Shown: piece by piece, positions 26,836-32,855 of the stretch
How the letters are laid out: every line of letters starts with the position of its first letter
Position numbering within the stretch: the stretch's first letter is position 1
DNA from: Calditrichota bacterium
GTDB taxonomy: Bacteria; Calditrichota; Calditrichia; Calditrichales; Calditrichaceae
Assembly: GCA_003854985.1 (NCBI GenBank)
Contig: RQOG01000024.1
Coordinates: 1 to 64,000, forward strand
Length of the DNA stretch: 64,000 nt
Direction: 5' to 3'
Notes under the pieces: generated by a model
What the model saw: the letters and a program-made list of their open reading frames with translations, nothing else
The model's database searches: none
Told to the model about the DNA's origin: nothing
Translations under genes and position numbers: made by a program

Positions 26836-27822
26836 ATGAATTTATTTGAACCAGGGTATCTTAAACTCTATAAATCCGGCGAACTGAAACGCCGTGTTGA
26901 CGCGCTTAACGAAATGCTCGCTTCATGCCGGGTCTGTCCGCGAATGTGCGGGGTTAACCGCTTTGAGACTAAAAATGGTATCTGTCGGATCGGTCATCTT
27001 CCTTCCGTGGTTTCTATCTGTGATCATCATGGAGAAGAACCGGCTTTGTCCGGATCGAATGGCTCAGGAACGGTGTTTTTCGGGGGCTGTAACCTGCGCT
27101 GTGTGTATTGCCAGAATCATGAAATCAGCCAGGAAGCCAGCTATTTTTCCGCTTTTGAAATGGAGACCGGACGGCTGGCGGAAAAAATCGTTGATCTGCA
27201 AAATATATATAAGGTGCATAATATTAATTTCGTTTCTCCGTCACATTGTGTCCCGCAAATGGCGGAAGCTATTTTAAAAGCCGTTCCTCTGGGACTTGAA
27301 ATTCCAATAGTTTATAACTCCAATGGGTACGACTCGGTTGAAGTGTTAAAACTGCTTGAAGGCATCATCGATATTTATTTGCCGGATCTGAAATATGCCA
27401 ACGATCAAACAGCCCGGCAATACTCCGGCGGTGATAATTACCGGGAGACAGCAAGAGCAGCCATAAAGGAAATGTACAGGCAGGTCGGTAATCTGCAAAC
27501 GGATAAAAAGGGTATTGCCCGGCATGGTCTGATTGTCCGGCATCTGATCCTGCCCAATGATTTGTCGGATACCAGGGAAAACCTGGCATGGATTGCCAAC
27601 GAATTGTCGCCGCAGGTTACGGTTTCCCTGATGGCCCAGTATTATCCGGCAAATCGGGCTATGGAATTTCCCCTTATAAGCAGAACGATTAATTATTCCG
27701 AGTATCTTTCCGCACTGAATGCCCTGGAAGAACTGGATATGACCGCCGGCTTTATCCAGCAGATGGACGCTCCGGAATATTATCAGCCGCATTTCAGGGA
27801 AAACGGACATCCGTTCGAATAA
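26836..27822 (+). CDS. Radical SAM protein, PflA-like (COG1313 type)
   Basis: This is a radical SAM enzyme of 328 residues. The cluster motif CX3CX2C is seen as GGCNLRCVYCQNHEIS, where three Cys hold the 4Fe-4S cluster that cleaves SAM. An N-terminal Cys set, CRVCPRMCGVNR with a later GICRIG, is typical of the PflA-like uncharacterised group rather than of PflA itself. The C-terminal half has DLKYANDQTARQYSG and VTVSLMAQYYPA. Function is unknown. A TTGACT with a weak -10 ends at the ATG, hinting at a very short leader. It faces away from the methyltransferase gene. Confidence 0.85.
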   Translation: MNLFEPGYLKLYKSGELKRRVDALNEMLASCRVCPRMCGVNRFETKNGICRIGHLPSVVSICDHHGEEPALSGSNGSGTVFFGGCNLRCVYCQNHEISQEASYFSAFEMETGRLAEKIVDLQNIYKVHNINFVSPSHCVPQMAEAILKAVPLGLEIPIVYNSNGYDSVEVLKLLEGIIDIYLPDLKYANDQTARQYSGGDNYRETARAAIKEMYRQVGNLQTDKKGIARHGLIVRHLILPNDLSDTRENLAWIANELSPQVTVSLMAQYYPANRAMEFPLISRTINYSEYLSALNALEELDMTAGFIQQMDAPEYYQPHFRENGHPFE

Positions 27823-28139: not shown

Positions 28140-28155
28140 TGGCATGGACTTTGCA
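28140..28155 (+). promoter_or_regulatory. Sigma-54 (RpoN) -24/-12 promoter of the cytochrome cluster
   Basis: The bases TGGCATGGACTTTGCA match the RpoN consensus TGGCAC-G-N4-TTGCA at all but one conserved position. The invariant GG (28141-28142) and GC (28153-28154) are exactly ten bases apart. Transcription would start near 28166, about 25 bases before the cytochrome start codon at 28191. Confidence 0.75.
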
Positions 28156-28190
28156 AAAATGAATATACACTTTAATTAATGGGAATGAAT

Positions 28191-29630
28191 ATGAAGAGAT
28201 TACTTTTTATACCCATGTTATTCATCACAGCCGTTTCCTGTACGCAGATCGTAGATGAAGACAAGATCGGAGAAAATGCCTATACCGGTGATGATGGATG
28301 TATTTACTGCCATACAAGTAAGGAAAGACTTACGGTTTTAGCTGTTGGCACGGGTGATACCGGCGGCGGAGGCGGCGGCTGAGGCGGCGAAGTCGCTCCG
28401 TTGGAGCCATGGGAAAAAATATATATCCGGCTAAGAACCGGACAAACGATTCCGGATATTGATCCGCATCTGCAAATCGCCTGTGTGGATTGTCATGGCG
28501 GCAATGCCAGTCAGCCGAATAACAAAGAAGCCGCCCACACCGGATTAATAGCCGATCCTTCAGAATACAGAATAATTGATGGTCAACGAACGAATAGCTG
28601 TGCCGGCGCCAATTGTCATGAATCCCTTGTAAAAGACCAGTATGGTAAGAGCCTGCATCAGAATCTGTGGGGCGAAAAAGTTATGGTGGCCGCCCGTTCC
28701 GGCGTACAAAGTTTTGATCAGTGTCCGCAAACAACCATTGAGGGCTATAACGGTGAATGCGCTAGCTGTCACGCCACCTGCGGTGATTGCCATATTGCAA
28801 TTCCTAACAGCGCGGGAAGCGGATTTCCAAAAACAGGTCCAATTTATTCTTCTCATAAATTCTATAAAACGCCGGATATGCAAAATAACTGCACGGCTTG
28901 TCATGGCTCGCGTGTAGCCCATGATTTTTACGGAGAAGAAGGGGTACGGCCGGGCGATGTACATTATGAGAACAATATGACTTGTCTGGAATGCCATACC
29001 CAGGCTGAAATGCACGGCGCGATTGCGGAGACAGATCAGAACAGCATATCCCGCTATCATTATGATCAGCTGCCAGCCTGCCAGGATTGCCATTCGGGTA
29101 TTACCGATGCCAATTTGTTTCACAGCTATCATATTGATGATATGACCTGTTACGTGTGCCATTCGCAGACCACGTATAATAATTGCACCGCCTGTCATGT
29201 TGATAATGTCTGGCAAACCGATCCGGTTTACCAAAATAATAATCCTGTGGAAGACTTCAGAATTGGATTGAATCCTTTGTACAGCACCTTTGAACAGGGT
29301 GATTTGCGCAAAGTTAAATTTGCTACGCTGCGTCATATTCCTATTGCGCCGGATTCCTATGCCAACTGGGGCGCCGCTTCAGCCAGCTTACCGGGATATA
29401 ATACGGTTCCGACCTGGAAGTATACCTCGCCGCATAATATACGGAGGTATAATGATCTTACGGAGGGCGTTTCTTTACCGGATTGTTATTCGAAGTGTCA
29501 TATAAGCGCGAATTCTGCTAATAAAAACTATTATCTGTTTAAAAGTTATGTCGATTCATTTTGGTCAAATGAATCGGATGCCAATACTCCGGTATTTGTC
29601 GACGGTCATTTACCGGATGGCTGGGAATAA
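28191..29630 (+). pseudogene. Multihaem c-type cytochrome lipoprotein (11 haem motifs), in-frame stop in linker
   Basis: This is a predicted outer-membrane or surface electron carrier of about 479 residues. The signal peptide ends in a lipobox (FITAVSC). One CXXCH (CIYCH) precedes a glycine-rich linker. Eight further CXXCH motifs follow, plus one CX4CH (CAGANCH) and one CX3CH (CYSKCH), so up to eleven haems. An in-frame TGA at 28380-28382 interrupts the glycine linker (codon 64); GGA to TGA would explain it, and the frame continues cleanly for 415 codons. Start: the ATG at 28191 has GGGA seven bases upstream and is preferred to 28179. It heads a cluster with rhodanese, beta-barrel and periplasmic cytochrome genes, which suggests trans-outer-membrane electron transfer. 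Confidence 0.85.
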
Positions 29631-29674
29631 TAACGGTAACTTGATTTAAGAGGTCAAACCAAAAGGAGTATTTT

Positions 29675-30609
29675 ATGAAGAAATATCTGATTTTTTTATT
29701 GGGAATATTGTTTGCTTTGTTTACCGGTTGCAGTTCATCCACAGATGATGATAAAAAAGAGCCGGTAAATGAGTTTCAGGTTCTGGTAAATTATCTTGAG
29801 GCCGGAGATACAGAGACGCTGGGCTGGGTGAACAATTTAAATGGATGGATTGTAAATTTGGCAGATATCGATACGAATGCCTTTTTATACTGGATATCCG
29901 CAGCGCGGCAGATTTTAGTTCCAAACCTCATTTTAAAGATGCCGTCAATTCGACAATGACTGGTATTTTTGATGCCGTAGACGGCGTTATAGATCCAATT
30001 CTTGTTGTATGTTATTCCGGTCAGTCTGCCGCTTACGCCCATATGCTGCTGAGATTGGCTGGTTATGAAGCCTATAGTCTTAAATGGGGCATGAGCATCT
30101 ATGATGCATCGCTCGATGTCTGGACTTCAAAATGTTCGAACTCTTACGCAAATGATGAAGACTGGGTAACTACGGCTTCCGTTGCCCTGCCAGCATTTGA
30201 TCCGCCGGTACTCAATACGGGAAAAACGACCGGCGCAGAGATCTTGCAGGCCAGGCTTACTGCAGCAGCAGCGATGTGGAGCGGCACAACTATTTCTGCG
30301 GCTGATGTTATGGCGGATCCCAGCGCTTATAATATCATGTGTTATTGGGGCGCGGGCGATTATACTACTCTGGGGCATATCGACGGGGCCTATCAGCTTA
30401 CGCCGAAAACATTGAAGTCAACGCAGAATTTATATGTTTTTGACCCAGATGCCGATAATATTCTCTATTGCTGGACCGGCCAGACGGCGGCCGCTACCAT
30501 AGCTTATCTGAAAGTTTTGGGTTATGAGAATGTATCATCAATAAGCTTTGGGGTTAATAGTATGATTTATGCTCAGTTATCAACCAATAAATGGCCGAAA
30601 CCTTGGTAA
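29675..30609 (+). pseudogene. Double-rhodanese lipoprotein with one-base frameshift
   Basis: This is a lipoprotein (lipobox ALFTGC, then an acidic Ser/Asp stretch) with two tandem rhodanese domains, about 311 residues when the frame is restored. The first domain has ILDIRSAADF and the active-site loop VVCYSGQSA. The second has the GHIDGAYQL element and active-site loop LYCWTGQTA, so both catalytic cysteines are kept. Frame 29675-29959 passes to frame 29845-30609 if one T is added to the T5 run at 29882-29886, restoring AFFILDIRS. Rhodaneses move sulfane sulfur; single-cysteine domains in such lipoproteins may act on sulfur or selenium oxyanions, but the substrate here is unknown. Confidence 0.85.
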
Positions 30610-30703
30610 AGTAATTAAAAAGATAAGAGGTTTTATAAATCCGGCGGATGACCGTACATTATCCGCCGGTTTGTCATTTTCACAATTAAACCTGGATAGC
30701 CCT

Positions 30704-31939
30704 ATGAAAAAGCTCATTTTAATAATACTGCTTATGGCCGGTTTGATTATGGCCGGGGATGTCGGGGGGAGTTTGTCTACCGGCATTTTTACTGGTACAC
30801 CTTTCTGGAATAAAGATAATATTAATTATGATGCAAGCGATTTAAAGTACATCAATTACGATGATATGTTCATCAGAAGTGTTAATCAATTGCGTCTTTA
30901 TGGGAAGAATTTCAGCGGATTTGATTTCAGATTGAATGCCCTAAGAAGTGACGCTCTTACCTATCAGGAAAAATTTAAATTTAATGGAATACTAATAGGA
31001 GAAGATAACCGGTTAAACAATACTAAAATTTATGAACTATTTGCCCAGTATAATTTTTCCTTGGGATATATTCAGGCCGGGCGCATTATGCCGTTTAACC
31101 GCTGGATAATGACTTCCATCGATGGCGGAGGCTTTTCTCTTGATATGAGTAGGAAAATTCGTATTACGGCTGTGGGGGGAATGAGCGTTAAGTATGGTAA
31201 AATATGGGATGATGAAAACACGCAAACAATCGCCTATGCAGATGCGGCCTACCAGAGCAGCGGCTACCGCGTAAAACTAAAATACTACCATGATGATGAT
31301 ATCGACAAAGCCGGAGCGGATTTTTACGGCGGTTTGAAAAAGCTGCGTTTCAACGGCAATTATGGTTATGATTTTACCAACGATCGTCTGGCGGACGGCG
31401 GACTTAATCTTTCATATCCCGTAAAAAGAAATATACTGCTAAGCGGCAACTACCTGCTATACCGTACACAAAACTGGTATTTTACAAATGTCGTCTATAA
31501 TCCCTATATGATCGAGCGTTTTATGCTAGGCGCCAGGTATCTGATGGATAATAACATCCAGGTAGATTTTAAACAGCTTCTGGCTATGAATTCCGAGCGG
31601 TCTGATTATTTGACCTATCTGACCGTAACGCACAAGTTTTTTACGGCTGGGGTTAATTATCTAACCGGCGGCTCCGATATGCAAAGGTTCGGCGCAACTT
31701 TAGGCGGGAATTATTCGCCCATGCAAAACATGATGATTTCCCTTGGCATATCACCGGTGGATTATATGTTTTATGATACCGAAGATCATGAATTCAGCAC
31801 GGCGGTTTATCTGCGAATCAAATATCGTTTTATGGAAAACTTTCAGGCTATGGGCAATTTAAACTATTACGATAATAATAATGCGCTTCATGCCAACCTG
31901 CGCGGCGGCGTTCGTATTCAATATAATTTCGGGAGTTAA
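30704..31939 (+). CDS. Porin-like outer-membrane beta-barrel of the cytochrome cluster
   Basis: This is a predicted outer-membrane barrel of 411 residues. A signal peptide (MKKLILIILLMAGLIMAG) is followed by repeated amphipathic strands with aromatic ends (YELFAQYNFSLGYIQAGR, LLSGNYLLYRTQNWYF) and a C-terminal YNFGS of the barrel-closing type. About 16-20 strands are plausible. The ATG at 30704 is chosen because it begins the signal peptide; the open frame runs 45 codons upstream without meaning. Lying between multihaem cytochrome genes, it would be the sheath through which haems cross the membrane, as MtrB does in Shewanella. No direct similarity to MtrB is claimed. Confidence 0.75.
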   Translation: MKKLILIILLMAGLIMAGDVGGSLSTGIFTGTPFWNKDNINYDASDLKYINYDDMFIRSVNQLRLYGKNFSGFDFRLNALRSDALTYQEKFKFNGILIGEDNRLNNTKIYELFAQYNFSLGYIQAGRIMPFNRWIMTSIDGGGFSLDMSRKIRITAVGGMSVKYGKIWDDENTQTIAYADAAYQSSGYRVKLKYYHDDDIDKAGADFYGGLKKLRFNGNYGYDFTNDRLADGGLNLSYPVKRNILLSGNYLLYRTQNWYFTNVVYNPYMIERFMLGARYLMDNNIQVDFKQLLAMNSERSDYLTYLTVTHKFFTAGVNYLTGGSDMQRFGATLGGNYSPMQNMMISLGISPVDYMFYDTEDHEFSTAVYLRIKYRFMENFQAMGNLNYYDNNNALHANLRGGVRIQYNFGS

Positions 31940-31941
31940 TT

Positions 31942-32805
31942 ATGAGAAAATATCTTGTAAGCGGATTATTTTTAATCGGGCTGCTTATCGCCGGTTCATC
32001 CTATAACAATTCGGATCATATTTTTTCTCATAAATTTCACGCGGAAGAAGCCGGAGCGGAATGCGACGCCTGCCACAATGCCGCTTTGGAAAGTTCAACC
32101 GGAGCGGATAATCTATATCCCAATCATGATAATTGTTACGCCTGCCATGACGAAGAGGATACGGAATGCGGTTACTGCCATAAGAATGCTGATGATCCGG
32201 TTGCGCTGGAAAGGATTGAGACGTATTCCAGGAAGTTCAGCCATAAACTGCATCTGGAAAACGGCGCCGAATGTTTAACCCGTCATGCGGGAATAGATCA
32301 AAAAGAAGATGCCTCTGCGGCCATGCATTTGCCGGATATGGATCATTGTATGACCTGCCACCAGACGCCTGCGGAAATGGATGGCTGTTATACCTGTCAT
32401 GAATCGGATGATATTTTAAAGCCAGCCGATCACGGGTTGGCCTGGATTGAAAGTCACGGCATGTATAGTGAAACCAATGCTCAGAATTGCGAGTCCTGTC
32501 ATCAGCAAAGCTACTGTATCGAATGCCACCAGGGGAAAAATTTATTCAACGAAAGTCATCCGGCGGATTTTATCGTAACCCATTCGATCAGCTATCTAAG
32601 CCGGGAAACGAATTGCGGCAGCTGCCATCAATCGCGGGATTACTGCATCGACTGCCATATCAATATTAATTATGTAATTCCGGCAAGTCATACTTTAGCC
32701 AATTGGACAGGTCAAGCCCATGCCAGGGAAGCCAGGATGGACTATGACCGCTGTTCGGTCTGCCACGTTCAGGGGGATCCTAATTGCACTACCTGTCATA
32801 ATTAA
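31942..32805 (+). CDS. Periplasmic multihaem c-type cytochrome (11 intact haem motifs, one lost)
   Basis: This is a small soluble cytochrome of 287 residues with a signal peptide (about 1-20) and no lipobox. Eleven CXXCH motifs are intact (CDACH, CYACH, CGYCH, CMTCH, CYTCH, CESCH, CIECH, CGSCH, CIDCH, CSVCH, CTTCH). A twelfth reads CLTRH (111-115), in a segment FSHKLHLENGAEC that copies the first haem segment FSHKFHAEEAGAEC; TGT to CGT at 32281 would explain the lost Cys. Dense haems in so short a chain suggest a periplasmic electron wire like MtrA. It starts two bases after the barrel gene stop. Confidence 0.9.
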   Translation: MRKYLVSGLFLIGLLIAGSSYNNSDHIFSHKFHAEEAGAECDACHNAALESSTGADNLYPNHDNCYACHDEEDTECGYCHKNADDPVALERIETYSRKFSHKLHLENGAECLTRHAGIDQKEDASAAMHLPDMDHCMTCHQTPAEMDGCYTCHESDDILKPADHGLAWIESHGMYSETNAQNCESCHQQSYCIECHQGKNLFNESHPADFIVTHSISYLSRETNCGSCHQSRDYCIDCHININYVIPASHTLANWTGQAHAREARMDYDRCSVCHVQGDPNCTTCHN

Positions 32806-32820
32806 CCAGGCCGGGAAATA

Positions 32821-32855
32821 AAAAAAAGGGCTTGCTATTGGCAAGTCCTTTTTTA
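32821..32855. terminator. Bidirectional hairpin terminator after the cytochrome cluster
   Basis: A stem of GGGCTTGC (32828-32835) and GCAAGTCC (32841-32848) with one G-U pair and a 5-base loop is flanked by A7 on the left and a T-rich run on the right. It can stop both the cytochrome operon and the converging - strand gene, whose last codons fall inside it. Confidence 0.8.

Follow-up and report, generated by a model that had tools for sequence, protein, structure and literature searches.

A predicted selenocysteine-containing 11-haem cytochrome beside a double rhodanese in a candidate outer-membrane electron conduit of Calditrichota

Genes and features of the locus

The window analysed here is a stretch of 64,000 nucleotides from a Calditrichota bacterium (assembly GCA_003854985.1, contig RQOG01000024.1, positions 1 to 64,000). 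Four neighbouring genes on its plus strand encode a multihaem c-type cytochrome lipoprotein (cyt1), a double-rhodanese lipoprotein, an outer-membrane beta barrel and a multihaem periplasmic protein (cyt2), with the cluster bounded by a radical-SAM-like gene (26836-27822) on one side and a terminator-like hairpin on the other (Table 1). An earlier annotation made from the letters of the window, the sequence-only reading, had described genes of these kinds side by side, and translations and domain searches bear this out. Its description of the first product as a lipoprotein with 11 haem motifs gives the correct count, but this requires reading through an in-frame TGA, a stop it had not reported and at which we place a selenocysteine (Sec), predicted as residue 68.

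Table 1. Features of the cyt1 cluster, with positions in the window and the basis of each assignment.
Feature	Position	Strand	Basis or remark
cyt1, 11-haem c-type cytochrome lipoprotein (lipobox Cys21, predicted Sec68)	28179..29630	+	read-through translation
In-frame TGA, predicted Sec68, in Gly-rich arm GGGGGG-U-GGEVAPLEPWEK	28380..28382	+	same-place TGA in homologues
Bacterial selenocysteine insertion sequence (SECIS) hairpin, GCTCC-GTT-GGAGC, loop 28400-28402	28394..28408	+	covariation; starts about 12 nucleotides past the TGA
Double-rhodanese lipoprotein gene, active-site loops CYSGQS and CWTGQT	29675..30609	+	translation; intact in relatives
Internal GC-rich hairpin, 11 base pairs, T-rich tail, strong	30641-30669	+	between rhodanese and barrel genes, inside the cluster
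Outer-membrane beta barrel, 411 amino acids, about 22 predicted strands, no plug domain	30704..31939	+	AlphaFold2, predicted local distance difference test (pLDDT) score 79
cyt2, periplasmic multihaem cytochrome, 12-haem family, 11 intact motifs	31942..32805	+	translation
Terminator-like hairpin and T run, cluster end	32828-32855	+	sequence; minus-strand version listed by the scanner

The haem motifs of cyt1 comprise nine CXXCH, one CX4CH and one CX3CH, all 11 of which are conserved in 100% of 39 homologues. In the same alignment the only conserved cysteines are those of the haem motifs, and just nine histidines outside the motifs are conserved, fewer than the 11 haems, which would allow for an open haem or one with unusual ligands. 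The arm bearing the predicted Sec68 falls between haem 1 and haem 2. Comparison of cyt1 with PDB profiles gave weak multihaem matches only (4qo5, MccA and NrfA, with E-values of 8e-5 or worse), which were not used.

The in-frame TGA of cyt1 and the hairpin behind it

The TGA was present at the same place in all of the first six relatives found to carry cyt1, and never as TAA or TAG. When 84,980 species' genomes were scanned with patterns that did not contain the TGA, 21 clear homologues were recovered, from Calditrichota, Neomarinimicrobiota/Fidelibacterota, Anaerolineales (Chloroflexota) and other bacteria, and all 21 have it. Among 39 aligned arm-bearing sequences, position 68 reads as Sec in 38 and as Cys in one, an invariance equal to that of the haem cysteines, within a glycine-rich pattern of the form GGG-U-GG or GxG-U-GG.

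A profile search of 385 genomes located the cyt1 protein in 31; most of the genomes surveyed are metagenome-assembled (MAGs). Each of the 28 that carry the TGA form contains SelB (above the curated cut-off) and/or tRNA-Sec (above the gathering score), and none of the three with other forms has SelA, SelB or tRNA-Sec; with labels assigned at random over the 31 genomes, and phylogeny ignored, this split has a probability of 1/4495. The genome of the window has all three components, each above its cut-off (SelA 487.7 bits, SelB 325 bits, tRNA-Sec 73.9 bits). One of the three exceptions, G016, is from the same order as the window and has TGT, for cysteine, at position 68 of a single continuous open reading frame; searches for SelA, SelB and tRNA-Sec in this genome found none. 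In the tree it is placed, on a long branch, as sister to a Sec clade, with 100/98 support for the joining group. The other two, G344 and G059, lack the arm entirely.

Behind the TGA, the hairpin combines a covarying stem with a short loop, usually GTT. In 38 sequences, 88.3% of the hairpin cells are paired, and 25 paired cells are changed on both sides, compared with 4.9 ± 1.9 in shuffled alignments; the covariation score is 0.385, whereas shuffling gave 0.130 ± 0.022 and slid controls did not exceed 0.163. Stem variants include GGCTCC/GGAGCC, GGTTCC/GGAACC, GGAGCC/GGCTCC, GGCCCC/GGGGCC and GCCTCC/GGAGGC. The stretch is also the most codon-conserved seven-codon window of cyt1 (best of 401). 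In a few distant members the stem forms only when the register is shifted, and locus L044, excluded from the covariation counts, has another hairpin at this place, as read by eye. No comparable hairpin was found in the cysteine variant of G016, and an Rfam scan of 26.5-34.5 kb returned no family match, for this hairpin or otherwise.

Were the TGA a true stop, cyt1 would be a pseudogene, or would yield two proteins by reinitiation, for instance from a conserved TTG at 28401. There is indeed a TTG in the hairpin region, and the window has further lesions, a frameshift in the rhodanese gene and a broken haem motif, CLTRH, in cyt2. Termination would, however, leave a downstream product without the signal peptide that export and haem attachment require. 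It would also have to account for a TGA kept across diverse genomes, under strong constraint on both flanks and never exchanged for TAA or TAG, for the covarying hairpin that accompanies it, and for a cysteine in a continuous reading frame precisely in a genome without Sec machinery. We consider termination extremely improbable. As causes of the TGA, pseudogenization and assembly error were rejected on the conservation of the codon. We conclude that the TGA almost certainly encodes selenocysteine, making cyt1 a selenoprotein by all sequence criteria applied here.

Partner genes in related genomes

Rhodanese is the partner most constantly found with cyt1. It adjoins cyt1 in 35 of the 35 arm-bearing loci with enough flanking sequence (two locus sets pooled), and also adjoins the cysteine variant of G016. 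Beside the arm-less homologues it occurs at neither of two loci (L082:6250-7479 and L083:5604-6548); there, in genomes without Sec machinery, the adjacent genes encode HD-domain phosphohydrolases. Comparison of these loci shows a link between the Sec arm and rhodanese.

In Calditrichota and Fidelibacterota the order is cyt1, rhodanese, barrel and a cyt2 with 11-12 haems, often followed by a four-haem protein and a multihaem cytochrome b. The survey of gene order in relatives that the sequence-only reading had proposed thus shows order and content recurring in many of them, and the arrangement is therefore not due to chance. In Anaerolineales (Chloroflexota), a multi-domain rhodanese comes after cyt1, and barrel and cyt2 were not detected at the loci. 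Anaerolineales cells are generally held to be without an outer membrane, which this distribution fits.

The barrel was described earlier as porin-like, and its AlphaFold2 model, a barrel of about 22 strands, agrees. The barrels that occupy this position in Fidelibacterota are its homologues (hhalign 98.2%, E 5.6e-14), and it belongs to no Pfam family, nor does it have a meaningful NCBIfam match. The suggested resemblance to MtrB found no support: there was no PDB sequence match either, and MtrB is absent from the top 50 fold hits. The best PDB fold matches are generic barrels (ushers, OprD/Occ porins), with a low template-modelling score. Among PDB structures, cyt2 is related to multihaem 'nanowire' cytochromes of the c7 type (3ov0, E 1.3e-23). 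The multihaem cytochrome b of the window genome is encoded on a separate contig (G000:C108). The cytochrome b partner of the cluster resembles a quinol dehydrogenase (Ni_hydr_CYTB/formate dehydrogenase gamma-like). At two loci (L011:1984-6917 and L084:1-4721), tandem multihaem genes with 11 and 19 CXXCH motifs and cytochrome b-type membrane domains lie downstream of cyt2; they are possible quinol dehydrogenases of the conduit.

Recurrence of the gene order in Calditrichota and Fidelibacterota and the barrel model support the reading of the locus as a conduit, and in diderm bacteria the cluster is very likely part of one crossing the outer membrane. The same architecture is found in conduits that deliver electrons to Fe(III), Mn(IV) or an electrode, and the shortage of conserved non-motif histidines relative to haems in cyt1 would suit such a role, in which the Sec would serve as redox buffer, as metal or haem ligand or as protection from oxidation and would not itself act on chalcogens. 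We think a metal-type conduit unlikely: it would have no need of a rhodanese, yet no gene accompanies cyt1 more constantly, even at loci where barrel and cyt2 were not detected.

Of the single promoter and single terminator described earlier, the terminator-like hairpin after the last gene stands, but the promoter gains no support, as a scan found 17 promoter-like sites with 15.0 expected, no better than chance. The hairpin between the rhodanese and barrel genes is a possible internal terminator, attenuator or processing site. No tRNA genes were found within the window. At Fidelibacterota-type loci (L034, L035, L036, L037, L040, L045 and L046) a MerR-like regulator of about 150 amino acids, confirmed by Pfam in L037, is encoded directly upstream of cyt1. 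LysR-like genes, judged by a look at the sequence only, lie near cyt1 in the Anaerolineales loci L038, L039 and L041; LysR-like genes have likewise been reported upstream of Geobacter extHIJKL.

Proposed function and relation to known systems

Like the MtrCAB, ExtABCD, ExtEFG and OmcB conduits, the cluster combines a surface multihaem lipoprotein, a barrel and a periplasmic multihaem cytochrome; it differs from them in a barrel that is unrelated to MtrB by sequence or clear fold match, and in the added Sec and double rhodanese. Closer in content is the extHIJKL(MNOPQS) cluster of Geobacter sulfurreducens. There, ExtH is a rhodanese lipoprotein, and loss of ExtI, a porin of the outer membrane, leaves cells impaired in reducing selenite and tellurite; ExtKL, a predicted selenoprotein, is described as a pentahaem cytochrome of the periplasm whose TGA falls at the ExtK/ExtL junction (PMC6148476, PMC5877670). 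These papers confirm what the sequence-only reading had said of rhodanese lipoproteins in ext clusters and of selenite and tellurite. The two clusters have in common a rhodanese lipoprotein, a similarly sized barrel, multihaem cytochromes and a c-type cytochrome containing Sec, ExtH and ExtI being likened here by their descriptions. In contrast to ExtKL, cyt1 has 11 haems instead of five, is a lipoprotein and carries its Sec near the N-terminus; as a predicted outer-membrane cytochrome it also sets the window cluster apart from extHIJKL, described as having none.

Identity of cyt1 with ExtKL was rejected, as the ExtKL model NF040886 matched neither cyt1 nor any of 21 members of its family at E<=1, and left the window locus unmatched in a genome-wide search; the hits elsewhere that were inspected are other pentahaem proteins or chance frames. 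A 2026 review lists 119 prokaryotic selenoprotein families, among them ExtKL (NF040886), an octahaem family (TIGR04315, tetrathionate reductase) and an MtrB/PioB-type barrel (NF041027) (PMC13188914). Bacterial selenoprotein families share with cyt1 the UGA, the downstream hairpin and the accompanying machinery, and some are multihaem proteins, but no GxG-U-GG 11-haem cytochrome has a matching family among the 119. No NCBIfam model (June 2026) matches cyt1, and a Sec cytochrome of this kind was not described in the open literature searched, the nearest being ExtKL and the entries of the review's table. Because of the missing NF040886 match, the 11 haems, the N-terminal Sec and the lack of a counterpart in the review, cyt1 appears to define a new selenoprotein family, and the cluster would belong, in a form of its own, to a known kind.

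The cluster might also be an equivalent of Geobacter extHIJKLMNOPQS, a device for the reduction or uptake of selenite, tellurite or another oxyanion, in which sulfur chemistry is incidental. The parts in common (rhodanese lipoprotein, barrel of about 45 kDa, Sec cytochrome, multihaem cytochromes, cytochrome b) and the selenite and tellurite phenotype of ExtI loss (PMC5877670) argue for this. Set against them are the lack of homology between cyt1 and ExtKL at the level tested and the absence of a meaningful NCBIfam match for the barrel, and we regard oxyanion reduction as a minority possibility.

Instead, we read the cluster, with a rough probability of 0.6, as an outer-membrane electron conduit whose outer end is formed by the Sec 11-haem lipoprotein and the rhodanese lipoprotein. 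Its localisation, electron route, substrate and direction we infer from gene content and conservation. Electrons would leave the quinone pool by way of a multihaem cytochrome b (that encoded on G000:C108 is an example), reach the 12-haem cyt2 and the barrel, and go on to cyt1 at the surface. The absence of a conserved non-haem cysteine in cyt1 leaves the Sec without a partner in its own chain; therefore, its partner is probably provided in trans, by the persulfide on a rhodanese cysteine or by a chalcogen of the substrate. Given how constantly rhodanese adjoins cyt1, the most economical proposal has Sec, next to haems 1 and 2, accept sulfane sulfur (or selenium or tellurium) from the rhodanese persulfide. 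The rhodanese would capture sulfane sulfur from polysulfide, elemental sulfur (S0) or thiosulfate, or the selenium or tellurium analogues; Sec68, on its flexible glycine arm, would take over the chalcogen as Se-S; and the haems of cyt1 would reduce the bound sulfur, releasing sulfide.

Confidence in the parts of this proposal differs. Chemistry of sulfane sulfur, selenium or tellurium at the end of the conduit has slightly better than even odds, and sulfane sulfur as the specific substrate somewhat worse than even. Most tentative is an extracellular module widespread in at least three phyla, in which rhodanese hands a chalcogen to the Sec arm and the haems reduce Se-S directly, making a selenium-based terminal reductase; this we put forward as speculative. 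Electrons may also run inward, from the oxidation of extracellular sulfide or metal sulfide. A passage of PMC6148476 cites work tying a rhodanese on the outer surface of Acidithiobacillus ferrooxidans to the oxidation of metal sulfides outside the cell, and sequence cannot tell direction; the relatives, however, look anaerobic and the cytochrome b partner resembles a quinol dehydrogenase, so that inward flow seems improbable.

Several observations weigh against the conduit proposed here. Both rhodanese domains keep their active cysteine, as described earlier, but a −1 frameshift of one base in a T5 run at 29882-29886, missed at the time, breaks the frame and leaves both cysteines in the second frame; it could be genuine decay or a consensus error of the MAG. 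In cyt2 the 11 intact motifs noted before are confirmed, but a twelfth is lost to CLTRH (32272-32286), where Arg114 (CGT, 32281-32283) replaces a second cysteine kept in 12 of 12 compared relatives; this loss, too, could be decay or assembly error. With the two lesions together, this copy of the cluster may be failing. The AlphaFold2 model of cyt1 is unreliable (pLDDT 41) and does not resolve the surroundings of the Sec, a low score that may be expected of a haem-free prediction. The link between arm and rhodanese depends on two arm-less loci of one family. The cluster is found in G005, probably Caldithrix abyssi, and it speaks for the proposal that this species, when fermenting, turns S0 and thiosulfate into sulfide; against it, neither compound served as respiratory acceptor for growth on H2 or acetate, and the authors of that study ascribed the sulfide to cytoplasmic enzymes (PMC5317091). 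This physiology neither proves nor excludes the proposal. The nearest analogue, Geobacter extHIJKL, has been tied to selenite and tellurite and partly to metals, not to S0 (PMC6148476, PMC5877670). Finally, all the evidence is sequence-based, for the proposed function as for Sec insertion and the conservation of the cluster.

With members in three named phyla (Calditrichota, Fidelibacterota and Chloroflexota) and several other lineages, cyt1 genes would be split at the TGA by standard annotation. The probable presence of the cluster in the cultured Caldithrix abyssi makes the substrate of the conduit testable. Alongside ExtKL, cyt1 provides a second, apparently unrelated, case of a predicted Sec cytochrome encoded next to rhodanese and porin genes, which points to a common chemistry. 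One conserved cluster thus ties together selenium, sulfur transfer and extracellular electron transfer, and the pairing of cyt1 with rhodanese suggests a selenium-armed device that would reduce sulfur-type compounds outside the cell.

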